64,000 nt of DNA from Gammaproteobacteria bacterium (lineage in GTDB: Bacteria; Pseudomonadota; Gammaproteobacteria; Enterobacterales; Psychrobiaceae), in NCBI GenBank assembly GCA_013214965.1, contig JABSRU010000009.1, positions 1 through 64,000 on the forward strand. Reading direction: 5' to 3'. Position 1 is the stretch's first letter. Every line of letters begins with the position of its first letter. Below are positions 48,468 through 60,240 of this stretch, in pieces. The notes under the pieces were generated by a model. It was not told the DNA's origin and did no database searches. It saw nothing but the letters and a program-made list of their open reading frames with translations. The position numbers and the translations under genes were made by a program.

Positions 48468-49883
48468 TTAATACTCATCGTCATAGGCAGGACCCGCATA
48501 ATTATCGAACCGTGAATAATGCCCTTGGAATGTCAGACGACATTTACCAATCGGGCCATTACGCTGCTTACCAATAATAATTTCTGCGCTGCCTTTGTCA
48601 GGACTGTCATCATTATAAACTTCATCACGATAAATAAACATGATTAAATCGGCATCCTGCTCAATCGCACCTGATTCACGTAAATCAGAGTTAATTGGTC
48701 GTTTATCAGCACGTTGCTCCAAACCACGATTAAGCTGTGATAGCGCAATCACTGGACATTTTAATTCTTTAGCTAAGGATTTTAACGAACGTGATATTTC
48801 GGAAATTTCTTGGGTTCTATTTTCTGACAAGGCTGGTACTTGCATCAATTGCAAGTAATCAATCACAATCATCGCAATACCATCATGCTCACGAGCTATG
48901 CGTCGTGAACGTGAGCGCACTTCGGTTGGCGTTAAACCTGACGAATCATCAATGTACATTTTACCTTGTTCAAGTAATAAGCCCATGGTCGATGAAACTC
49001 GTGCCCAATCATCATCTTCTAATTGACCGGTTCTGATTTTAGTTTGATCAACCCGGCCTAATGAAGCCAGCATTCTCATCATGATTGATTCGGCGGGCAT
49101 CTCGAGCGAGAATATAACCACAGGCTTGTCTTCATTCATTGCCGCATATTCGGCAATATTCATTGCAAAGGTGGTTTTACCCATCGATGGTCTGGCGGCA
49201 ATAATAATTAAATCAGAATCTTGAAAACCGGCGGTCATTTTATCTAAATCGCCATAGCCACTAGAAATACCAGTAATACCATCATGGGGGTTATTATAAA
49301 GCTCTTCGATTTTATCAACGGTTGAGGCTAAAATATGCTTAATATCTTGGGGGCCTTCCGAAGCATTAGTACGCTTTTCTGCAATTTTAAATACTTTGCT
49401 TTCCGCTAAATCCAGCAGCTGGGCACTATCACGCCCTTCCGGTTCAAAGCCTGCTTCCGCAATTTCATTAGCAACGCTAATCATATCGCGGACTACCGCA
49501 CGTTCACGTACAATAGTCGCATAGGCTGAGATGTTCGCCGCACTTGGCGTGTTTTTGGCCATTTCGCCGATGTAAGCAAAGCCACCAACAGCATCCAGTT
49601 CATTTTCACGTTCCAGTGCTTCAGACAAGGTCACCAGATCGATCGGGTTACCACGTTCAATTAAGTTAGCCATGAATTTAAAAATAGTGCGGTGATCTTT
49701 ACGATAAAAATCTTCACTAACCACCAATTCAGAAACGCGATCCCATGCCTCGTTATCGAGCATTAAGCCACCGAGTACCGACTGCTCAGCTTCCAACGAA
49801 TGAGGAGGAACCTTAAGTGCCTCCACTTGCGCGTCATGTTTCTCAAATTTTTTGTTACGCGGTTTAAACTCTTGCTGTGCCAT
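48468..49883 (-). CDS. dnaB: replicative DNA helicase DnaB
   Basis: Hexameric 5'-3' fork helicase. The N-terminal domain (PHSLEAEQSVLGGLMLD) is followed by the RecA-fold domain with Walker A in IIAARPSMGKTTFAMNIAE, Walker B in AMIVIDYLQLM, and the arginine finger and ring contacts in KQRNGPIG. 471 residues, no intein. It is followed by alr. No strong ribosome site; the start at 49883 (MAQQEFKPRNKK) fits the family's short N-tail. Confidence 0.97.
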   Translation of the reverse strand: MAQQEFKPRNKKFEKHDAQVEALKVPPHSLEAEQSVLGGLMLDNEAWDRVSELVVSEDFYRKDHRTIFKFMANLIERGNPIDLVTLSEALERENELDAVGGFAYIGEMAKNTPSAANISAYATIVRERAVVRDMISVANEIAEAGFEPEGRDSAQLLDLAESKVFKIAEKRTNASEGPQDIKHILASTVDKIEELYNNPHDGITGISSGYGDLDKMTAGFQDSDLIIIAARPSMGKTTFAMNIAEYAAMNEDKPVVIFSLEMPAESIMMRMLASLGRVDQTKIRTGQLEDDDWARVSSTMGLLLEQGKMYIDDSSGLTPTEVRSRSRRIAREHDGIAMIVIDYLQLMQVPALSENRTQEISEISRSLKSLAKELKCPVIALSQLNRGLEQRADKRPINSDLRESGAIEQDADLIMFIYRDEVYNDDSPDKGSAEIIIGKQRNGPIGKCRLTFQGHYSRFDNYAGPAYDDEY

Positions 49884-50041
49884 ATTGAACCATGATTAAA
49901 AATGTATAACCGTATTATCTAATACTGACCAATTTAAGCAAATTATTCTTGCTACAATCACAAAACAATACTAGGGCCTGTTGAATGAGAACTAATTAAT
50001 ATGATAGATTGCTATAAAATCATTCAACTTTTGGTCTTAAA

Positions 50042-50689
50042 ATGAAAAAAACAGCTTTATTATTAGCACTTTCTATCGCTAGCGCCCCACTTTTAGCAAC
50101 CACAACTAAAGCTTTCGACCCCTTTTGGCAGATTAATGCTGGCGTCGCTTCGATTAATATGAGTAATTTTAATTATCAGCATGTTGAACTTGATTCTTCT
50201 TCGGATATTTTTGATACGTTAGTGTCCGCATCAGTGGCTTATCAATTTACCCCAACATGGTCAGTTGCTTTGCAAGTTTCGCCAAAGCTGGGTTCCTGCT
50301 CGCTATTCTGTGATAGCCAAGGGATTGATAACAATAATCAACTACTAGATGTTGATTACAGTGTCACGTTTTATAACATAGAAGCACAATACCGTATTCC
50401 ATTATCGCAACGTTGGTCGTTTATGCTTAATGGCGGCGTTACTGTCGGTCACGAGAGAATAGAAACCCAAAGCTGTAGCGATTATTCAAGTAATGGTTGG
50501 TTTAGCCGCTATCATTGCCGCGATGCCTCCACTCAAGAAAAAAGTTCACAACGAAAAACAGCTGCCATTGCAGGTCTTGCTTTTGATTTTCAATTTGCTA
50601 AACATTGGGGCTTAAGATTTGATGCGAAAGCCAGTAACTATCGCTCGGGTTATACGATGATTGGTTTTTCGATGTCAGCACGTTTTTAA
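50042..50689 (+). CDS. OmpW/porin-like outer-membrane protein
   Basis: 215 residues: a signal peptide (ends ~LLATTTKA, residue 24) followed by an eight-strand-type barrel with the C-terminal Phe (MIGFSMSARF). Four cysteines lie in two predicted extracellular loops (CSLFC and SCSDYSS...YHC), suggesting disulfides. It has no close functional assignment. Upstream are a weak ribosome site and a 9-base inverted repeat (49980-49988 with 50020-50028). It converges on the SMC/nuclease operon. Confidence 0.72.
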   Translation: MKKTALLLALSIASAPLLATTTKAFDPFWQINAGVASINMSNFNYQHVELDSSSDIFDTLVSASVAYQFTPTWSVALQVSPKLGSCSLFCDSQGIDNNNQLLDVDYSVTFYNIEAQYRIPLSQRWSFMLNGGVTVGHERIETQSCSDYSSNGWFSRYHCRDASTQEKSSQRKTAAIAGLAFDFQFAKHWGLRFDAKASNYRSGYTMIGFSMSARF

Positions 50690-50706
50690 GCGAGATTAAT
50701 AATCCG

Positions 50707-51612
50707 TTAACCTTTAACCTTTACCAAGGTTAAAGGTATCTGATGGCTGATCATATGTTCCTGCTGCCAAGTTCGTCGATAGTGACCCATTCTCGTGAAA
50801 CCAGCAACCAATACTGGTGATATCAGTTGCTTATTACACAGTGTTTGTACCGCCTTTTTTGGGTTTTTTTTCCACCAATTTTCTTCAACATCCTTTAACT
50901 CAACCGTAAAAATATAATCCCAACTCGATGTCGATGGTATTAAACAATCCAGAGCTGATGAACCGTTGCTAATAACAATCCCCGCGGGATCAAAATCACT
51001 AAAACAAATCAATTGATGGGAGCCCGACCATTGGCGAAAAAATTGATAGGCGCTACTGGTATTTTGTTCTGGCTTAATATCACCACGATAGACAAACAAT
51101 GGGTCACACACATCAGCGGGTAATTTAAGTTGTGCCAAAGCGGCCATCACCGCGAGATTTTCCACCAGCACAATTTGCTGATGTTCAATCGATAGCACAT
51201 CACTGGCGTTAATATAAATCCCTAAACTATTAATCGCTGGTAAGCGCTGTGATTGTTGATTTATTTTCAGTGTCGCTAAGCAATTTACCAACACAAAACC
51301 TTGGGTGACCGCTGAGGTATGTTTTTTAGTACTGAAATTATCTTTAGAGTTTTCGATTCGGCTTTTGTCGGCCGCTTTAGCCGGTAAAAAGGCTGGGTTA
51401 CATCCGGTACTCTTTTCAATACTGGCATTAAGCCGAATTAAATCAAGCGCTGTGAAACTTAATCCTCGCTGCGGGTCATAATCACCAAAATGATATTCTT
51501 GGGCAATAAAACAGGCAATCGCCGATGCGGATGCCGTCAGGATATTATCTTTGGTAAAGCGTTGGTAAATTCGCTGTGCGAACTCGATTACCTGTTGATC
51601 ATCAATCGCCAT
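50707..51612 (-). CDS. JetD/MksG-like Toprim nuclease of a condensin defence-type operon
   Basis: 301 residues. The N-terminal ~75 residues look like a winged helix. The C-terminal half is a Toprim domain with the acidic triad visible: Glu151 in IVLVENLAVMAAL, and Asp206 and Asp208 in ICFSDFDPAGIV, as in topoisomerase VI-A and Wadjet JetD nucleases. JetD proteins cut plasmid DNA bent by the SMC complex. The ATG at 51612 overlaps the kleisin stop by 11 bases (an upstream TTG at 51621 is also possible). Last gene of the four-gene operon. Shorter than typical JetD (~390 residues). A hairpin with perfect 11-base arms spans its last codons (50711-50736). Confidence 0.78.
   Translation of the reverse strand: MAIDDQQVIEFAQRIYQRFTKDNILTASASAIACFIAQEYHFGDYDPQRGLSFTALDLIRLNASIEKSTGCNPAFLPAKAADKSRIENSKDNFSTKKHTSAVTQGFVLVNCLATLKINQQSQRLPAINSLGIYINASDVLSIEHQQIVLVENLAVMAALAQLKLPADVCDPLFVYRGDIKPEQNTSSAYQFFRQWSGSHQLICFSDFDPAGIVISNGSSALDCLIPSTSSWDYIFTVELKDVEENWWKKNPKKAVQTLCNKQLISPVLVAGFTRMGHYRRTWQQEHMISHQIPLTLVKVKG
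50711..50736. terminator. hairpin at the 3' end of the SMC/nuclease operon
   Basis: Perfect arms CCTTTAACCTT and AAGGTTAAAGG around the loop TACC, overlapping the last codons of the nuclease gene. It lies between two convergent genes. There is no long T-run, so it may be a weak bidirectional terminator. Confidence 0.45.
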
Positions 51613-52849
51613 TGGGTTCAATCACGACATCGGTAAAGGTAAAGTTATTGTTAGTGCCGTCAACAACCCGCCCTTTCATGTGAATGGTTAATCCTTGTTG
51701 TTGATCGTTAGTTAACTTGCAGTAACAACTAAAGACCAACTCAATCCACGATTTTGGCGCCATATCTTGTGCTTGTTGTTGCCATAATGGCTGATGTTGT
51801 TGCCAATATTCAAGGGCTGAACAGCCAACATTATTAATGATGCTATGTTCAAACAGTAATTCAACTTGTTGCTCGAAAAAGTCATAGTCATAGGCAATTT
51901 CTTCAATCGCTTCGACGCTTATTTCACAACTGTCACGCTCCTTAACCAAAGCGGTCACCGAAGCTTTACGTAATGACTGCACAATCTCAATTAAATCAGA
52001 TTCAAGACCGGTATTACGGACATCGACATAACTGCGCAAAGGTAATGGCGGTGAAAACTTAAGCTGCTGCGGTAAATGTTCAGCATCATACAATTGCGGA
52101 TCAATCTCAAACTCAGGATGGGCCCGTAAATAACGTGCCATCCCGCGTAATTGATTGGCTTGCTTTTCATCTTGGCGTAATCGAAATAAACTGACCCGCA
52201 TTTTATCAATGATATGGGCCAACCGATCTAACACCCGATGGAACCATTCAATAAAACCAGTGACTTTACGCGCTAATTCACTGGGACAGGCCCAATCAAT
52301 CCATTGGTAACAAACGTTGGGATCAATTTGCTTCAGTTCTAGTAATAATTTCTGGGCATAGTTCAGCGCTTTTTCATTTTCACGAACCTTGGCACTCAAG
52401 GTCGAGACAAAACCAAATTGGCTGGTAATGGCATAGTGCATGTTATCGAGACTACCGGAAAAGCTATCTTTTGTGTCGTAGAGTAAATCGTCTAACTGCT
52501 CGAGATAATAATCAGCATCATCAAGTTGTTGTTGCTCAATTGCATCGCGATAATCGGTAACGCTGTCACTTAAGGCATTAATAACCTTCCCCATATCGCT
52601 CATTTGGCGATAACCACGCTGTTGGCGCATCAGGCGATTAAGCATCTGCTTAATATCAGCTGAGGTACGATAATCACCGGCGTCTTCGTCGGGACGTAAA
52701 ATACCCGATTTATGTAAGCTACTTAACTGATTAACATTACTATCATCGCTACTGATATAGCCTTGGACATAAGCCTGTGCGATCAGCTGATCATGCTGAC
52801 CGAGTTGACGCAATAGACTGGCGACATGTTCACTATCAAATCCACTCAT
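51602..52849 (-). CDS. kleisin-like condensin subunit (JetA/MksF/MukF-like)
   Basis: 415 residues. The N-terminal ~85 residues look like a winged helix. A long helical middle (~90-240, QMSDMGKVINALSDSVTDYRDAIEQQ onward) and a C-terminal winged-helix-like segment follow, the layout of MukF/MksF/JetA kleisins that bridge the two SMC heads. No catalytic motif. It starts in TAATG overlap with the MksE-like gene and is followed, with 11-base overlap, by the Toprim nuclease. The family assignment rests on length, architecture and neighbours rather than a diagnostic motif. Confidence 0.7.
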   Translation of the reverse strand: MSGFDSEHVASLLRQLGQHDQLIAQAYVQGYISSDDSNVNQLSSLHKSGILRPDEDAGDYRTSADIKQMLNRLMRQQRGYRQMSDMGKVINALSDSVTDYRDAIEQQQLDDADYYLEQLDDLLYDTKDSFSGSLDNMHYAITSQFGFVSTLSAKVRENEKALNYAQKLLLELKQIDPNVCYQWIDWACPSELARKVTGFIEWFHRVLDRLAHIIDKMRVSLFRLRQDEKQANQLRGMARYLRAHPEFEIDPQLYDAEHLPQQLKFSPPLPLRSYVDVRNTGLESDLIEIVQSLRKASVTALVKERDSCEISVEAIEEIAYDYDFFEQQVELLFEHSIINNVGCSALEYWQQHQPLWQQQAQDMAPKSWIELVFSCYCKLTNDQQQGLTIHMKGRVVDGTNNNFTFTDVVIEPNGD

Positions 52850-53475
52850 TAAAGCAACAACTCCTCTTGGCTGCTTTGATGCTCTTCGGGCAATTGCAGT
52901 TTTTCGCTATCGTTTAGAAACTCAATCAGCAGATAAATTAAATCAAAACGGGCCGTCGCATAATAACGACTACTACCAGCAGATTTTCGAACAAAGTAGC
53001 CTAGTTCTTCAAGCTTAGAAAAAATAGTCACTAACTGCTCTCGCGGCTCAATTTTACTAGTTTTAAACGGCCGCATCGTGGTTAATCGGCGCAATTGTTC
53101 CGTCAGTGTTTGGTCATGTTCAAACGCTTCAAATAACTCATTAATATTGACGATATCTTTGGCTCGCAGCGGCGTATCACTGCCGGTGGCCACTAAGTGA
53201 ATATCGAGCCATTCGACTAACGGACGAAAATAACTACGAACTTCGCCAAACAAGCTACTAATGTCGGATTTATTGCTACTATCGACACTATTGTAGGTGC
53301 AATAGTATGCTTGGGCGCTATCCAAATAACTAAGCTGACGATCGAGGTTAGATAAAAAATCACTCACCCGCTCTTTATTGCTATCGGCCTCCAAATATTG
53401 GAATAAGTCGTTATCTGCAGTTTCACAAATAACCATCCCTGTCAGCAACGCTTCAATGGTTTGTTTAAATATCAT
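52849..53475 (-). CDS. MukE/MksE/JetB-like condensin subunit
   Basis: 208 residues. It is predicted as a tandem winged-helix protein: a helical N-terminal half, then LRRLTTMRPFKTSKIEPREQLVTIFSKLEELGYFVRK, a wing-like motif typical of the MksE/JetB C-terminal domain. Its start overlaps the SMC gene stop as ATGA and its stop overlaps the kleisin start as TAATG. A small acidic protein between SMC and kleisin fits the kite (KITE) subunit of MukBEF-type complexes. Not identifiable by motif alone. Confidence 0.7.
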   Translation of the reverse strand: MIFKQTIEALLTGMVICETADNDLFQYLEADSNKERVSDFLSNLDRQLSYLDSAQAYYCTYNSVDSSNKSDISSLFGEVRSYFRPLVEWLDIHLVATGSDTPLRAKDIVNINELFEAFEHDQTLTEQLRRLTTMRPFKTSKIEPREQLVTIFSKLEELGYFVRKSAGSSRYYATARFDLIYLLIEFLNDSEKLQLPEEHQSSQEELLL

Positions 53476-56400
53476 AATGATGACTCCTGCGATACTGTTC
53501 CCTGGAATTCTGACTGCGCTTGACTTAAATCTTGTTTACGCTGAGCTAATAACTGATCGAGACGAGATTGTGGGATGTGGGCATGATATAGCTTACTGTC
53601 TTTAATTTTATAATGACGTTGATAGAGCGATAAAATATGACGATCGGTCGAGGGTGAAGCCGACAACATCACAATCGAGTTTTGAGCGAACATTTTCAGT
53701 AATAAATCGATGTTTTCCGCCGCTAACTCCCCTAATTCATCAACCGGTAGAATGACGCTAGTTGGATGCTCATTACTACCTCGCAGCATTGATAAAATAC
53801 CGGCAAATAATGACAACATCGCTAAATAAGACAGTCCAGTTGAACTGATTTTTTTCAACTGCCGGGCATTACGAGCACGTTTAACTTCACCTTTTTCGGT
53901 GATCACAAATTCAATATCAAATAACTCATGATGTTCCAGCGATACACCTTCGGCAGGTAGAACCCGAGATAATTCACGCATCGAGTTAATCAATTCTTCC
54001 GGCACTTCGCGATTAGGATCATTAAGATCATCGCGTAACATGTCGTAACTTTCAGAAAAGTTCTTTAATTGACTCCAATAATCGAGCATTTCGATTTTAG
54101 AGATAGTATTAATATTAATTTCAGCTAACGCCTCAAACTGCGCTAACGCCGTGACATTATCCGACAACTTGCGACCGACTCGATTGATCTCTTTTTTGAA
54201 GTGAGTTAAATGCTTATAAAATTCATCAATCTTAATCGCGTTTACATCAATCAGCTGACCCGTAGATTGCTGTAATTGCTCGGCGGTCGAGAGTAAATCA
54301 CCAATGGCATTTTTGTATTTAAACACCGTTTCACTGCCCTGATACTGATCATTGTCAGCGACTAAGGTCACCCAATTAACATAGAGCTGACTACCCGCAT
54401 GGTTACGACGGAATTTTTCACTAAAACCATTAATGTCTTTATTGAGTCGATCCTTGTGACTGCGGTAGTTGCTGGTATCTTGCTCAATAAAACGCGGCAC
54501 CATATCAGGCTGAAATGTATTAGCTTGCGGATCAATGGCGGCGACAATTTCTAAGCCATCACATTGGTTTTTACCCTGAGCCAAGCACACTAACAAATCG
54601 TCATTTTTAGCAATCGACTCTTTAATTCGCTTAATACTATCTTTGGTACGACGCAACTCAAGGTTTAGCTGCTGACTGTCGGTGACTAACTTATCGTTTA
54701 ATTGATTTAACGCTAATTGACGTTGATTGTTTTTAATCACTAGCGGTTCACGTTGACTAAAACTCATCTCAATAAAGTTTTGATAAGTACGTGCCTTGTT
54801 AGCAAAAACATCACATTGTTCAACCGATTTATTGAGGCTTAGTTGCTCTTGAATACATTTATCTATTTCACCGTCAGGATCACGCTCATTAATCGCTTTT
54901 TTACGTTGCTGCAAATATCCTTTTCGTAATTCTTTTTGCTGCTGGTTATAGCTGGTTAGTTGGTCATTAATGGTGTCTAATTGGCTTGAGCAATCACTTT
55001 CAATCACCATTTTATTTTCGAGTAATTGATTATTGAGCTGATGGAGATCCTCAGACTTTTGTTGGTTAAAATCCTGTTGCTGTTGCTTATTTTTATTAAG
55101 TTGCCCGATCAATTGTTCGATCACTTGCTCAAACTGCTGCTGTTCCTTGATCAACGCTTGACGACACTCAATTTCATTACGTTCTGATTGTTGCTGCAAT
55201 TGTTCGATGTCTTTATTTAAGCGTAACGTTTGTTGTTTAGTGCTTAAAATCAGTGTTTCTTGCTCTATAATCGACTGATTTTGTTCGCCAATTAGCTGTT
55301 CTTGCTGGCTAACCTGGTCCATTTGAGCCATTAATTTTTGGTTAATTTTTTCAGCTTGATCCCGTAGTTCACTTTCACTGAGTGACAGGGCGTTATCGTC
55401 GGCCAGTTGTGCTAAATCGATGCTTAAACCAAAAATAGATGACGAGGCTTGCTCTAACTCATGCTTGAACTCAGGGCTTAAATCATGGCGAGATAATAAT
55501 TGTGGCGATAAAACTCGCCCAATATTGTCATGCCACAGCTGCTCGCTAGCATGCTCATCGAGATAGTGATGCAGTGAGCCAACTTGTGGATTAATTTGCT
55601 CAGAAATTAGGTGATAATCTTTTGCTAACTCATCTTGCTGGCGTTTATCAGCGGTTAACTGATGTAACGCTTGTTCACGTTGAGCGCTCAATTTAGCTAA
55701 GTGAAGCTCTTGGCTACTTTGCTGCTGTAATTGTTCGCTGTAAGTTTGTTGCGCGTACTGTAAGGCGGCATCACATTGTTGACGTTTTTCGCTGAGTTCA
55801 TTGGGTAAATGAACCGATTTAACCAATTGCTGGTTATTTTTGAGGGTCACCTCAAGCTCAGTCTGATGATTACTTAGATTGACAAACTGCTGTTGTTGCT
55901 GTGCCATTAATTGATCTTTCTGGCTTTGATATTGTTGTTCAAATTCACTAGCTTTAGCATTCGCTTGCTGAGTAATGTCGGCAATCAGCTCCTGCTGTTT
56001 AGCATTGTGTTTTGAACTATCAAGATCTAACTTTGCAATTAACCCTTCGAATTTAGCCCCAATATTGGCTATTTCACCTTCAAAGGTGGCAATAATCTGA
56101 TTAACATCGGCTAACCGGGTCAAATACTGGCTTTTATTGTCCGCTCTTAATTGGTAACTGGGCGCGTCATCGTCATCAAAGTCTTGTTTGTCTTGATCCA
56201 GTTTATCAATAAAAGATTGATCACTCTCAATCTCACGGCTTAACTGTTTAATTTCACTTTGTAATGTCGCTTGTAATTGATCGAGCTGCGCTTGGTATTT
56301 ATCACGAGCACCTAAGGCTTGTTTACGCTGTTCAATGAATTTTTTCGCTTCTTCTGCAGCGCTAGCACTGTATTGGTCAGTCAAAGCCGCCAAATGTTTT

Positions 56401-57227
56401 AGCTTAGTTAACAAGTTTTCCAATACAATAAAATCTTCTTTCCATAGCGCGATTTTGCTAGCGACTTTCTGGACGCTGCGACTCGCTTGAATATCATTTA
56501 GCCACTGAGATATTTCATCCTTGTTAAGCTGCATGTATTCTTTCGAACCCGTAATATCACTGCGGGCAATATAATCCTCAACAATAGAAACCAACATTCG
56601 CTTAACCGCATCAAAATCTAAATTCTTTTCAATGGTACCGTTAACCACTTTGTCAATGTGGGGACAAGGCGTATGGCTAAGGCTATAGCGGTTTTGTAAT
56701 TGTTTAATTTCTTTGTTTTTTTGGCCACTACGAAGTTTTTGAATCACTTGGCGGTATTGATCAACCCGTAAAAAATTAGAACTATGAACATTACTTAACT
56801 GAGTTTGATACTTATTAACGATCTCTTTGATCCGCAGCGGCTTGCTATCCTCACCAATAAAAAACTCACTATGATAAGGAGCATCAATCAACTTAAATTG
56901 AACACCGCGGCCATCACTCGATGCGATCATTTGACAAATTTGTGCCGTCGCAGAACCAACACTAGGACGCTGATATTCATAAACCAGCATGCTCGACTCT
57001 CGCGGTAGGTAATAGTCGATGAAATTTTTCGATTGATCAACTTTACTGACAATATCGCTCGGACGCATGCCATAAAACAAAGGTAACAGTCGCATTAATG
57101 AGGTTTTACCCGCGCCGTTAGTGCCCTCCAGCTGGGTGTGGCCACTAAAATCAAGTTCGTTAATTTTACCACGCCAAAAGCTGTCGATAATAATAATTCG
57201 GAGCAACTGAAAAGAACCGCTGTGCAT
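53472..57227 (-). CDS. SMC-like ATPase (JetC/MksB/MukB-like)
   Basis: About 1251 residues, large and dominated by Gln/Glu/Lys-rich coiled coil (~residues 260-1000). Head motifs: Walker A LEGTNGAGKTSL (~33-44), ABC signature SSTGLSYLAML (~1128), Walker B ILPVDELGEL (catalytic Asp-Glu at ~1163-1164) and a switch segment IVMLSASPS. It is therefore a complete, probably active SMC-type DNA motor. The start at 57227 follows an ACAGG site and a TATAAT promoter (57271-57276). Upstream in-frame starts (57272, TTG 57302) lie on or before that promoter. First gene of the operon. Confidence 0.82.
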   Translation of the reverse strand: MHSGSFQLLRIIIIDSFWRGKINELDFSGHTQLEGTNGAGKTSLMRLLPLFYGMRPSDIVSKVDQSKNFIDYYLPRESSMLVYEYQRPSVGSATAQICQMIASSDGRGVQFKLIDAPYHSEFFIGEDSKPLRIKEIVNKYQTQLSNVHSSNFLRVDQYRQVIQKLRSGQKNKEIKQLQNRYSLSHTPCPHIDKVVNGTIEKNLDFDAVKRMLVSIVEDYIARSDITGSKEYMQLNKDEISQWLNDIQASRSVQKVASKIALWKEDFIVLENLLTKLKHLAALTDQYSASAAEEAKKFIEQRKQALGARDKYQAQLDQLQATLQSEIKQLSREIESDQSFIDKLDQDKQDFDDDDAPSYQLRADNKSQYLTRLADVNQIIATFEGEIANIGAKFEGLIAKLDLDSSKHNAKQQELIADITQQANAKASEFEQQYQSQKDQLMAQQQQQFVNLSNHQTELEVTLKNNQQLVKSVHLPNELSEKRQQCDAALQYAQQTYSEQLQQQSSQELHLAKLSAQREQALHQLTADKRQQDELAKDYHLISEQINPQVGSLHHYLDEHASEQLWHDNIGRVLSPQLLSRHDLSPEFKHELEQASSSIFGLSIDLAQLADDNALSLSESELRDQAEKINQKLMAQMDQVSQQEQLIGEQNQSIIEQETLILSTKQQTLRLNKDIEQLQQQSERNEIECRQALIKEQQQFEQVIEQLIGQLNKNKQQQQDFNQQKSEDLHQLNNQLLENKMVIESDCSSQLDTINDQLTSYNQQQKELRKGYLQQRKKAINERDPDGEIDKCIQEQLSLNKSVEQCDVFANKARTYQNFIEMSFSQREPLVIKNNQRQLALNQLNDKLVTDSQQLNLELRRTKDSIKRIKESIAKNDDLLVCLAQGKNQCDGLEIVAAIDPQANTFQPDMVPRFIEQDTSNYRSHKDRLNKDINGFSEKFRRNHAGSQLYVNWVTLVADNDQYQGSETVFKYKNAIGDLLSTAEQLQQSTGQLIDVNAIKIDEFYKHLTHFKKEINRVGRKLSDNVTALAQFEALAEININTISKIEMLDYWSQLKNFSESYDMLRDDLNDPNREVPEELINSMRELSRVLPAEGVSLEHHELFDIEFVITEKGEVKRARNARQLKKISSTGLSYLAMLSLFAGILSMLRGSNEHPTSVILPVDELGELAAENIDLLLKMFAQNSIVMLSASPSTDRHILSLYQRHYKIKDSKLYHAHIPQSRLDQLLAQRKQDLSQAQSEFQGTVSQESSL

Positions 57228-57270
57228 TGGCAATACCTGTAATGATTGATGATTAGAAAGACAATCTGAC

Positions 57271-57298
57271 ATTATAGCCAGCTGATATTGAACAGCAA
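57271..57298 (-). promoter_or_regulatory. candidate sigma-70 promoter of the SMC/nuclease operon
   Basis: On the minus strand TTGCTG (57293-57298), a 16-base spacer and a perfect TATAAT (57271-57276). Transcription would begin near 57264, giving a ~37-base leader with an AGG site before the ATG at 57227. This supports the shorter start for the SMC gene. Confidence 0.55.
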
Positions 57299-57369
57299 GC
57301 AACTAATGTTATAGTTTAAACACTAACTCACGCCAAGAGCGTTTAAATAAAATACTCGATACTGCTAGA

Positions 57370-57468
57370 GATATCGGTACATGTGGAGCAAACATTATTT
57401 TTCAGGGATGAAAAATCGAGCCTACATGGACGTATTCACGGCGTGTGTGCGTAATATGTGCCGATATC
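57370..57468. repeat. dispersed structured repeat, copy 2
   Basis: A 99-base element closely matching copy 1 at 14718-14815. Arms GATATCGGTACAT (57370-57382) and ATGTGCCGATATC (57456-57468). The internal hairpin is ATTTTTCA / TGAAAAAT. Relative to copy 1 one arm pair changes A-T to G-C on both sides and another T-A to T-G, so pairing is kept. It sits between the SMC operon promoter and the amidohydrolase gene. Confidence 0.8.
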
Positions 57469-57524
57469 TAGATTATAATGCGGTTGCCGTGATCACTAAC
57501 TAAATTATCTCAGGGAGTCGTTTG

Positions 57525-58865
57525 ATGAAAAAAAGATTAGCCATGGTATTACTAACCGCGACATTAACCAACGTTAGCTATGCTAACAGCGAAATGATGT
57601 TAATTAATCCAGAGCTGGTCAATACCTTAGCCCAAGCGATTGAACCACAAGTTATTAAATGGCGTCATCATTTTCATCAGCACCCTGAATTATCGAATCG
57701 TGAATTTAAAACTGCTAAATATATTGCTCGTTATCTTAAAAGATTAGGACTTAAAGTCACTACAGGTGTGGCTCACACTGGCGTAGTCGCAATTTTAGAT
57801 ACCGGACGATCAGGTCCTGTGGTCGCGCTACGCGCCGATATTGACGCCCTACCGATTACTGAAATCACCAACCTACCTTTTGCTTCAACAGTCACCACAC
57901 AATACAACGGAAACCAAGTGGGTGTGATGCACGCCTGTGGTCATGATACTCATGCCGCCATGCTAATGGGCGCCGCTCAAGTCTTAGTCAAAATGAAAGA
58001 CCAGCTTAAAGGCAAGGTCAAATTCATTTTTCAACCCGCCGAAGAAGGTGCGCCCAAAGGGGAAAAAGGTGGGGCTGAGTTAATGGTTAAAGAAGGAGTT
58101 TTAAATTCACCCAAGGTGGATGTAATCTTTGGAATTCATATTAATTCTCAAACTGATGTCGGTACAATCAAATACCGCAAAGGTGGTATTATGGCCGCCG
58201 CCGATCCCTTTAAAATTATCGTTAAAGGTAAACAGTCCCATGGCGCTTACCCTTGGTTAAGTGTTGATCCGGTAGTCACTTCAGCGCAAATAATTATGGG
58301 CTTACAAACAATTATTAGTCGTGAACTTAAATTAATTGACGATGCAGCGGTCATTACCATAGGTAGTATTCATGGGGGTAATCGTTCTAACATCATTCCT
58401 AATCAAGTTGAACTGGTCGGCACCATTCGTACCCTAAACGATCAAGCGCGGGAGCTTATTTTAGCCGCGGTTCGTCGTAAAGCGACTTATATTGCAAAAA
58501 GCATGAATGCCACTGTTGAGATTTTCTTACCCAATGGCTTTAATTATCCAGTGACCTTTAATAATCATCAATTGATGGCTCAAATGCTGCCAACCTTGCA
58601 AGCCACGGCTGGCCTTGATAATGTGATAGAAACCAAGGCAGTATTAGGCGCTGAAGACTTCTCGTTTTTTCAACAAAAAGTGCCTGGGCTCTATCTTTTT
58701 GTCGGGGGGAAAAACCCCAAGACTCCCCTTGCACAAACGGCAGGTCATCACACACCTAATTTTGTCATCGACGACAACGCATTAAGCTTAGGCGTTAAAG
58801 TACTCAGTAATTTAACCATTGATTATATGAACAACTATCAAGAGGAAATCAGCGTTAGTGAATAA
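57525..58865 (+). CDS. exported M20 family amidohydrolase/peptidase
   Basis: 446 residues. Signal peptide to VSYA (~residue 20), then the M20 (peptidase/aminoacylase/hippurate hydrolase) fold. Motifs: WRHHFHQHPELSNREF, VALRADIDALP (metal Asp), HACGHDTHAAML (metal Cys/His), FQPAEEGAPKGEKGGA (Glu), a dimerisation domain near KGKQSHGAYPW, and C-terminal GAEDFSFF and HHTPNF (His). The ATG at 57525 with GGGAG upstream is preferred to the TTG one codon earlier. It probably cleaves N-acyl amino acids or peptides in the periplasm. It overlaps the following membrane-protein gene by 8 bases. Confidence 0.92.
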   Translation: MKKRLAMVLLTATLTNVSYANSEMMLINPELVNTLAQAIEPQVIKWRHHFHQHPELSNREFKTAKYIARYLKRLGLKVTTGVAHTGVVAILDTGRSGPVVALRADIDALPITEITNLPFASTVTTQYNGNQVGVMHACGHDTHAAMLMGAAQVLVKMKDQLKGKVKFIFQPAEEGAPKGEKGGAELMVKEGVLNSPKVDVIFGIHINSQTDVGTIKYRKGGIMAAADPFKIIVKGKQSHGAYPWLSVDPVVTSAQIIMGLQTIISRELKLIDDAAVITIGSIHGGNRSNIIPNQVELVGTIRTLNDQARELILAAVRRKATYIAKSMNATVEIFLPNGFNYPVTFNNHQLMAQMLPTLQATAGLDNVIETKAVLGAEDFSFFQQKVPGLYLFVGGKNPKTPLAQTAGHHTPNFVIDDNALSLGVKVLSNLTIDYMNNYQEEISVSE

Positions 58866-60240
58866 CATATCTTTAGAGCAAGACGAAAATTTATCAATAA
58901 TTATTAGCCATCAAATGTTGCCGCAAGACTACCAGCGGCTTGATTTATATTTTTCGCTGCCCGTTGAAATGGGTATAAGCTCGACGACACTCAATGAAGA
59001 AAGTTATTTCCACTCCAGCATTAAGAGTCGTTGTGCCTATTATTCGGCGCAACTGCATTTACCTTTGGTCCAAAGCCGCTTTATCAGTCAGCAAAAAGGT
59101 CAACAGGATGACTATCGGGTTAACCTTAATCTGTACTCTTTCCAAATCAGGATTGCGTTAGACGTCGATATTAAGGCAACTTTAAAAATTAAAGAGGCCG
59201 ATCAGTTTTTTACTCAAACTATCGAGATTTCGGAACAAATAGGCGGCTTATTAAAAAAATTACGCCGTTATACTCCTAAAGATAAAAAACTTAGTCCATT
59301 TTTTGAAAATGCCGATAATTACTTGAGTTGGCATGTCGAACAATCGTTTTTAATGTTATTAACCAAAGGGCCAAAAAGTAGCGAATATTCAGATCAACGA
59401 GAATTAATTATTGAATTTTGCCGTCGCGAAAATGACTATCGCGACCAAAAGCAATATAACTCACAAGTCACACTCAATGATCCGAATCGAATCACTAATA
59501 AAATGCGCCTATTACAGCGTTTAATTGAATATGGCGTGGTATTCCAAAAAGAAACTCGTCATCTTAACACTAACTTAAAACGCATGGTACGCGGCACCGT
59601 GACTGCCATTATCATGGCTTTTGTGATGACACTAGTACTAAACGCCCGCTCTAGTTTCACTGAAATAACCATGGTATTAATTGCCATATTAGGCGTAATT
59701 TATGGTTTACGTGAAATATTTAAAGATGAAATCACCGGATTAATTTGGCGTCGTATTCAACGCGGTCTCCCGAAATGGCAGAATGTGTTCATGAATAATG
59801 CCACCAAAAATCGTATTGCCAGTCAAACCCTGTGGCTTGAATATATTAACCATAAAAGACTGCCTAATTATGTCAGTAGCTTATTTAATAAACGCCGCCA
59901 GCAAAATAGACAAGCCGCCCAACTCTTGCATTTTAGAAGTGATACCAAAGTTATCGCAAAAAAGTTTTTACCGGGTTATGGTGAAATTAAACAGCAAATG
60001 CTCTTTAACTTAACCCCTTTTGTCCGTTTCTTGAAAAAAGGCGAAGGACGTTTATATAGTTTAGACAACAACAAAATTAGCCAACAAGCGGTCGAACGAC
60101 GTTATCAAATTAATTTAGTGCTGGTGCAAAGCAATAAAAAAGGGCCACAGCAACTGCAACGGTTTAAAGTGACCCTTAATCGCTCTGGTATTATCAATAT
60201 TGAAGCGATGAAATTAATTGATCAGCCATTAAAGGCCTAA
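58858..60240 (+). CDS. unknown two-helix membrane protein
   Basis: 460 residues starting with GTG at 58858, overlapping the M20 gene by 8 bases. There is no signal peptide. Two adjacent hydrophobic segments (TVTAIIMAFVMTLVLNA and ITMVLIAILGVIYGL, ~residues 248-290) divide a large basic N-terminal domain (~1-240) from a C-terminal domain (~295-460), both probably cytoplasmic. I do not recognise a named family. The strict coupling to the exported amidohydrolase suggests a shared job but gives no mechanism. The stop overlaps convergent rsmI by 12 bases. Confidence 0.7.
   Translation: MNNISLEQDENLSIIISHQMLPQDYQRLDLYFSLPVEMGISSTTLNEESYFHSSIKSRCAYYSAQLHLPLVQSRFISQQKGQQDDYRVNLNLYSFQIRIALDVDIKATLKIKEADQFFTQTIEISEQIGGLLKKLRRYTPKDKKLSPFFENADNYLSWHVEQSFLMLLTKGPKSSEYSDQRELIIEFCRRENDYRDQKQYNSQVTLNDPNRITNKMRLLQRLIEYGVVFQKETRHLNTNLKRMVRGTVTAIIMAFVMTLVLNARSSFTEITMVLIAILGVIYGLREIFKDEITGLIWRRIQRGLPKWQNVFMNNATKNRIASQTLWLEYINHKRLPNYVSSLFNKRRQQNRQAAQLLHFRSDTKVIAKKFLPGYGEIKQQMLFNLTPFVRFLKKGEGRLYSLDNNKISQQAVERRYQINLVLVQSNKKGPQQLQRFKVTLNRSGIINIEAMKLIDQPLKA

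Follow-up and report, generated by a model that had tools for sequence, protein, structure and literature searches.

Is an SMC complex that carries its own nuclease a defence system directed against plasmids, or a condensin that organises the chromosome of its host? This question is raised by four genes on the reverse strand of the 64,000-nt stretch analysed here (the window; contig JABSRU010000009.1, from a gammaproteobacterium of the Psychrobiaceae), which encode a structural maintenance of chromosomes (SMC) ATPase, a KITE subunit, a kleisin-like subunit and a Toprim nuclease. An earlier note on this DNA had offered two alternatives, a Wadjet subtype and a chromosome-organising condensin with its own nuclease. 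Of these, the second is favoured and the plain Wadjet subtype less so, because the three-gene core is present throughout five families, at fixed loci, with the nuclease as an optional addition. We consider it rather probable that the operon represents an MksBEF-like condensin with a presumed function on the chromosome and a dispensable nuclease predicted to restrict plasmids.

The operon of four overlapping genes reported in the earlier note is real, and its genes follow one another in the order SMC, KITE, kleisin-like subunit and nuclease, all on the reverse strand. The SMC-type ATPase (53472..57302), of the MksB/JetC-like DUF3584 branch, matches PF12128 with 822 bits and has MksB as its best profile partner. 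Its open reading frame (ORF) comprises 1276 aa with a probable ATG start at 57227, and its length is thus given as 1251–1276 aa. The ATPase motifs are intact, as had been claimed: G60, N62, G65 and K66 in the Walker A region (residues 58–67 of the 1276-aa ORF; 57102..57131), S1154 and G1156 in the ATP-binding cassette (ABC) signature region (residues 1153–1156; 53835..53846), and the Walker B Asp-Glu (residues 1188–1189; 53736..53741) are invariant in 34 SMC sequences. The KITE subunit (52849..53475; MksE/JetB-like) is of the MksE type by its PF21980 match (39 bits, cut-off 27), which 27 of 33 aligned relatives also have, and its profile is colinear with that of JetB. The kleisin-like subunit (51602..52849; MksF-like) was assigned from its operon position, a weak colinear match to the MksF profile and a low-confidence structural model (predicted local distance difference test score, pLDDT, 60) with an N-terminal winged helix, a helical middle and a C-terminal winged-helix-like end. 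The nuclease (50707..51621; 304 aa; MksG/JetD/Topo VI-A-like) matches PF23947 with 126 bits and the profiles of MksG and JetD, and fold comparison of the predicted structure indicated a Toprim fold of the JetD/MksG type. Its Glu/Asp-x-Asp triad, E154 (51160..51162) and D209-x-D211 (50989..50997), is invariant in 29 sequences. The three Pfam matches, the nuclease fold and the profile comparisons bear out the identification as a Wadjet/MksBEFG-like SMC-nuclease operon.

For classification, profiles of the four subunits (built without L042, L043, L081, L102, L112 and L115) were compared with type I JetA-D, a second Jet set (L058, whose JetA is typed as III by PADLOC, and L176), MksFEBG, MukFEB and four unrelated controls, which gave at most 1.0%. 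The SMC profile matched MksB in the N-terminal head region with an hhalign probability of 98.3% (P 2.5e-14), JetC with 80% and MukB with 11%. The nuclease profile matched MksG over its full length (95%), the second-set JetD (94%) and type I JetD (90%). The best partner of the KITE profile was JetB (55%), with 0.9% for two MksE comparators, and the kleisin-like profile gave a weak but colinear match to MksF (9.7%) and 0.2% for JetA. Against the type I–III Jet models of PADLOC-DB 2.0.0, the sole match of the operon was a weak one to JetB1 (E 0.0067). Among its relatives, 9 of 34 SMCs matched one JetC1 model (best 3.3e-5, or 1.2e-7 when all JetC models are counted), and at most 7 of 29 nucleases matched one JetD model (best of any 6.8e-9). 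Since the same library strongly claims the comparators (JetA1 471 bits in the type I operon, JetA3 938 bits for the type III JetA) and matches the operon only weakly through JetB1, it leaves the operon unclassified. Judged from these comparisons, the operon is of the Wadjet/MksBEFG kind and forms a distinct DUF3584 branch outside PADLOC types I–III. In six plasmid records with relatives, the core and nuclease genes are annotated only as ATP-binding protein or hypothetical protein; surveys with such models and annotations would therefore undercount the branch.

All DUF3584 loci examined have the order SMC, KITE, kleisin and, where present, nuclease, whereas the order in Wadjet JetABCD is kleisin, KITE, SMC, nuclease. 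The order that the earlier note called unusual thus differs from jetABCD and mksFEBG but is not peculiar to this locus, being fixed throughout the branch. Similarly, the nuclease is a compact Toprim enzyme, with about 80–120 aa fewer than JetD of the type I comparators, but nucleases of 287–293 aa also occur in MksBEFG-like operons of canonical order (L057 and L179). These operons, which carry a DUF7281-type nuclease, provide the best profile partners of the SMC, the nuclease and, weakly, the kleisin, and the KITE of L057 also matches MksE PF21980. They differ from the operon studied here in their order (kleisin, KITE, SMC, nuclease), in the length of their SMC (917–923 aa versus about 1250 aa) and in their KITE, which the KITE profile barely matches (0.9%). 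The existence of canonical-order operons with a DUF7281 nuclease shows that, within the superfamily, gene order is not tied to the type of nuclease. The kleisin and Toprim genes lie about 4.9–5.4 kb apart in G110 and Psychromonas L033, separated by five forward genes, and the nuclease is still conserved; the intervening genes of L033 encode an L,D-transpeptidase, a DUF3087 protein, an aminotransferase and an alcohol dehydrogenase (the four tested genes with Pfam matches), and one matches no family. Another arrangement was seen in L060, in which a JetD-like nuclease gene comes first, followed by a gene for an SMC of 978 aa, which matches DUF3584 weakly, and by genes of 478 and 184 aa.

Among described condensins, MukBEF shares the general plan of MukB, KITE and kleisin. 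PF04310 of MukBEF had no match in the window genome (the E. coli control was positive), and MukBEF occurs in other families, with one genome in common. In Pseudomonas aeruginosa the gene order is mksFEB, and the SMC is shorter than that of the DUF3584 branch. MksBEF was reportedly divided into subfamilies by Petrushenko in 2011. In the literature searched, DUF7281 was unmentioned and DUF3584 occurred only under titles on other subjects, although earlier notice in Petrushenko 2011 or in subscription journals is possible. P. aeruginosa MksBEF is a three-gene core without a nuclease, has a KITE of the MksE type (by Pfam name) and usually occurs beside Smc-ScpAB in the genome. It is reported to organise and segregate the chromosome, and its family is described as sporadic and usually found alongside other condensins (PMC7485682), whereas the DUF3584 core is universal within five families.

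That universality emerged from a survey of 197 genomes of the order, in which PF12128 matches above 400 bits were regarded as strong. PF12128 was found in 76 genomes (75 strong) and DUF7281 in 47; phylum-wide, DUF7281 was found in 13 of 398 genomes, all of them in the class of the window. Five families (f1, f2, f6, f10 and f12), singled out after the data had been seen, contained the SMC gene in all 58 genomes (9, 11, 13, 12 and 13, respectively; the family denominators, except that of f1, were inferred from the round-robin sampling order of the genomes). All three core genes were present in 57 of these, the remaining locus being truncated at a contig end, and the nuclease was present in 37 (8, 5, 8, 4 and 12, respectively). 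The window genome carries the complex in a single copy. In f2, flanks common on both sides surround all 11 loci, with and without the nuclease, and a common downstream gene was found in 12 of 13 loci of f6, 10 of 12 of f10 and 10 of 13 of f12, whether the nuclease was present or absent.

The fate of the nuclease was followed on an unrooted tree of 86 concatenated cores. This tree excluded L042, in place of which the longer L164 was used, L112 and L115, whose SMC genes are fragmented, and L032, apparently the same contig as L104; G017, whose SMC is truncated at a contig end, is in no tree, L102, whose SMC ORF is split, entered by its longest piece only, and four loci at contig ends (L084, L103, L104 and L034) were not scored for nuclease state. 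The presence or absence of the nuclease changes at least 14 times on this tree. Sister cores that are 97–100% identical are yet unlike in nuclease state (L047/L094, L051/L096 and L049/L097). The absence from L096 is a loss, because the 3' part of the gene (residues ~250–300) survives there in degraded form. Nuclease and core phylogenies are congruent (Mantel rho 0.67 over 53 rows, 0 of 2000 permutations; same nearest neighbour in 33 of 53). This agreement favours numerous losses of an ancient nuclease over repeated gains, a matter that counts on an unrooted tree cannot decide. Nuclease-free cores had ratios of non-synonymous to synonymous substitution rates (dN/dS) of 0.007–0.13 in five of six pairs, the sixth being saturated, and are on this measure under purifying selection; they are also intact. 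In the five families the core is thus present throughout, at a fixed locus and under selective constraint, which is not so in f7, f16 and f20. The nucleases evolve faster than the cores (dN/dS 0.07–0.30 where dS was finite). Two Ferrimonas genomes (L035 and L036) have cores that are 96–100% identical but nucleases of only 44% identity, a pattern suggestive of allele exchange or of very rapid evolution confined to the nuclease.

Within the genus of the window, two types of operon occupy the same site. The conserved flanks, which lie outside the system, are dnaB (48468..49883, reverse strand) and, on the opposite side, a 460-aa gene (58858..60240, forward strand). The latter adjoins the operon on the same contig in all nine genomes of the genus, with an M20 peptidase gene intervening in the window. 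The opposite flank is formed by dnaB in the window, G079, G041, G061, G152 and G016; the gene was not found in the retrieved stretch of G096, and the contigs of G111 and G139 end before that point. One type is found in the window, G079 and G111 (SMC 76–78% identical), and the other, 25–28% identical to the first, in G016, G041, G061, G096, G139 and G152; dnaB is 88–95% identical in the four genomes compared. Approximately unbiased (AU) tests on 31 of the 86 core-tree rows rejected the monophyly of the genus (p 8.8e-9) and of f6 (p 9.4e-125), in which G181 carries an operon of the window-like type at the family's own locus. From this we infer homologous exchange at a fixed site.

The complement of other condensins in the hosts bears on the role of the core. 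Strong MukB (69 genomes) and strong PF12128 matches co-occur in only one of the 197 genomes (G114), a near-exclusion that lineage history alone may explain. Of the 45 genomes of f1, f2, f6 and f10 with PF12128, 42 also have ScpA, which was found in none of the 13 genomes of f12. Searches for Smc with TIGR02168 gave at most 33 bits in all 13 f12 genomes, and in the same search eight of nine other genomes had a full Smc above 900 bits, the ninth (G021) being a MukB genome. The single MukB match in f12 had 23.8 bits (G125). The DUF3584 complex is consequently the only SMC condensin detected in the 13 genomes of f12, a Psychromonas-like family. On the core tree, Psychromonas sp. MB-3u-54 (L033) clusters with G110 of f12, and the two have flanking genes in common.

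In the published model of type I JetABCD, JetD cuts after total loop extrusion, and an origin of MksBEF by loss of JetD has also been proposed (PMC10586767). By analogy, the core encoded here would dimerise and extrude DNA loops in an ATP-driven manner, and it may have a standing chromosomal task in nucleoid organisation or segregation, like P. aeruginosa MksBEF. The nuclease would dock on this core and cut when extrusion ends in self-collision on a small circular DNA, as proposed for JetABCD, thereby adding plasmid restriction. After loss of the nuclease the core would be kept because it has a function of its own, and repeated loss could turn a plasmid-cutting condensin into a plain one.

Several observations weigh against such a condensin. 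The identification of the kleisin is weak, given its model and profile matches. The SMC gene is patchy outside the five families (six genomes with and at least six without in f7, two and at least three in f16, three and at least three in f20). No clear nuclease remnant was seen in the other eight of nine pairs, so most absences are not proven losses. Most hosts outside f12 also encode Smc and/or ScpA, among them the window genome, which has both besides the DUF3584 complex, and because of this the core need not be the main condensin there. A further Mks-type complex, invisible to the models used, may also be present in f12. On plasmids, six of six records examined (of 38 with SMC matches) carry the nuclease, as expected of a defence system, and one plasmid copy adjoins WYL, Tn7-like transposition and SAVED genes; the plasmid copies may plausibly serve in defence. 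The two operon types at one site, found within two families, also resemble an exchange of defence alleles. Together with the nuclease fold, the Toprim residues and the fast evolution of the nuclease, the plasmid copies, the two operon types and the patchy SMC of f7, f16 and f20 fit a plain Wadjet-type anti-plasmid defence with permuted gene order, whose three-gene copies would be inactivated relics on their way to loss. However, relics would decay, and the nuclease-free cores are intact and under purifying selection; moreover, presence throughout five families at fixed loci is unlike a patchy defence system. We therefore regard plain defence as a distinctly less probable explanation.

Two further explanations appear improbable to us. 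The core might be a sensor with varied effectors, in which another nuclease, linked or unlinked, replaces a missing Toprim enzyme. A small HNH endonuclease gene, a possible substitute effector, lies 54 bases downstream of a Toprim-less core in f20 (L079:7437-7883), an NYN-LOTUS gene lies about 340 bases downstream of another in f7 (L105), a family in which none of six loci has the operon nuclease, and the distant Toprim gene of G110 and L033 is still conserved. In f2, f6 and f10, by contrast, the same flanking genes are found with or without the nuclease, and no substitute is seen nearby. Of equally small probability, in our judgement, is a Topo VI-A-like role of the nuclease in chromosome maintenance by the condensin, for example in decatenation or break processing, rather than in defence. 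The affinity to Topo VI-A would suit such a role, but frequent absence and fast evolution would be odd for a maintenance enzyme, and the relatives MksG and JetD are reported as nucleases of anti-plasmid systems (PMC10123090).

If the operon encodes a condensin with a dispensable nuclease, f12 is of particular interest. Here a Wadjet-type complex, with its nuclease in 12 of 13 genomes, could have replaced Smc-ScpAB and MukBEF as the sole chromosomal condensin, and the branch could be a live series between immune machine and condensin, in which the nuclease is gained and lost on a conserved chromosomal motor; we give this proposal somewhat less than an even chance. The data hint that a single machine can serve both chromosome care and plasmid defence. 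Because operons with and without the nuclease occur at one locus and are nearly identical, the step between the two forms is testable in sister strains. The findings also raise the question of how a loop extruder carrying a nuclease works on its own chromosome without cutting it, which is sharpest in f12.

Some additional features of the relatives were recorded. The interval between dnaB and the 460-aa gene (window 48468-60240; L045, L052, L053, L054 and L071) is variable in the genus: the window has the M20 peptidase gene and an outer membrane protein-like gene, L053 and L054 each have a gene of one family, which in L053 encodes a TonB-dependent receptor, and a reverse gene of 173–184 aa is common to L052–L054. 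In L102 (G096) one stop codon splits the SMC frame, and the KITE, kleisin and nuclease ORFs are intact. Four Ferrimonas genomes (L037–L040) have a nuclease of 220–224 aa that starts right at the end of the kleisin gene and apparently lacks the N-terminal domain. In G020, a second, divergent nuclease-like gene of 277 aa (L041:3643-4476) immediately precedes the SMC gene; it scored 102 bits with our own profile and has no Pfam match. Among plasmids, KITE matches were found in 10 records, compared with 38 for the SMC. On the IncC-type plasmid L112, beside the WYL, Tn7-like and SAVED genes, the SMC gene is divided into two parts with an IS256-like transposase gene between them. A Dolichospermum phage record contains a distant SMC relative (PP438435.1:86940-90527), the match covering 35% of the query at 27% identity (E 7e-17).

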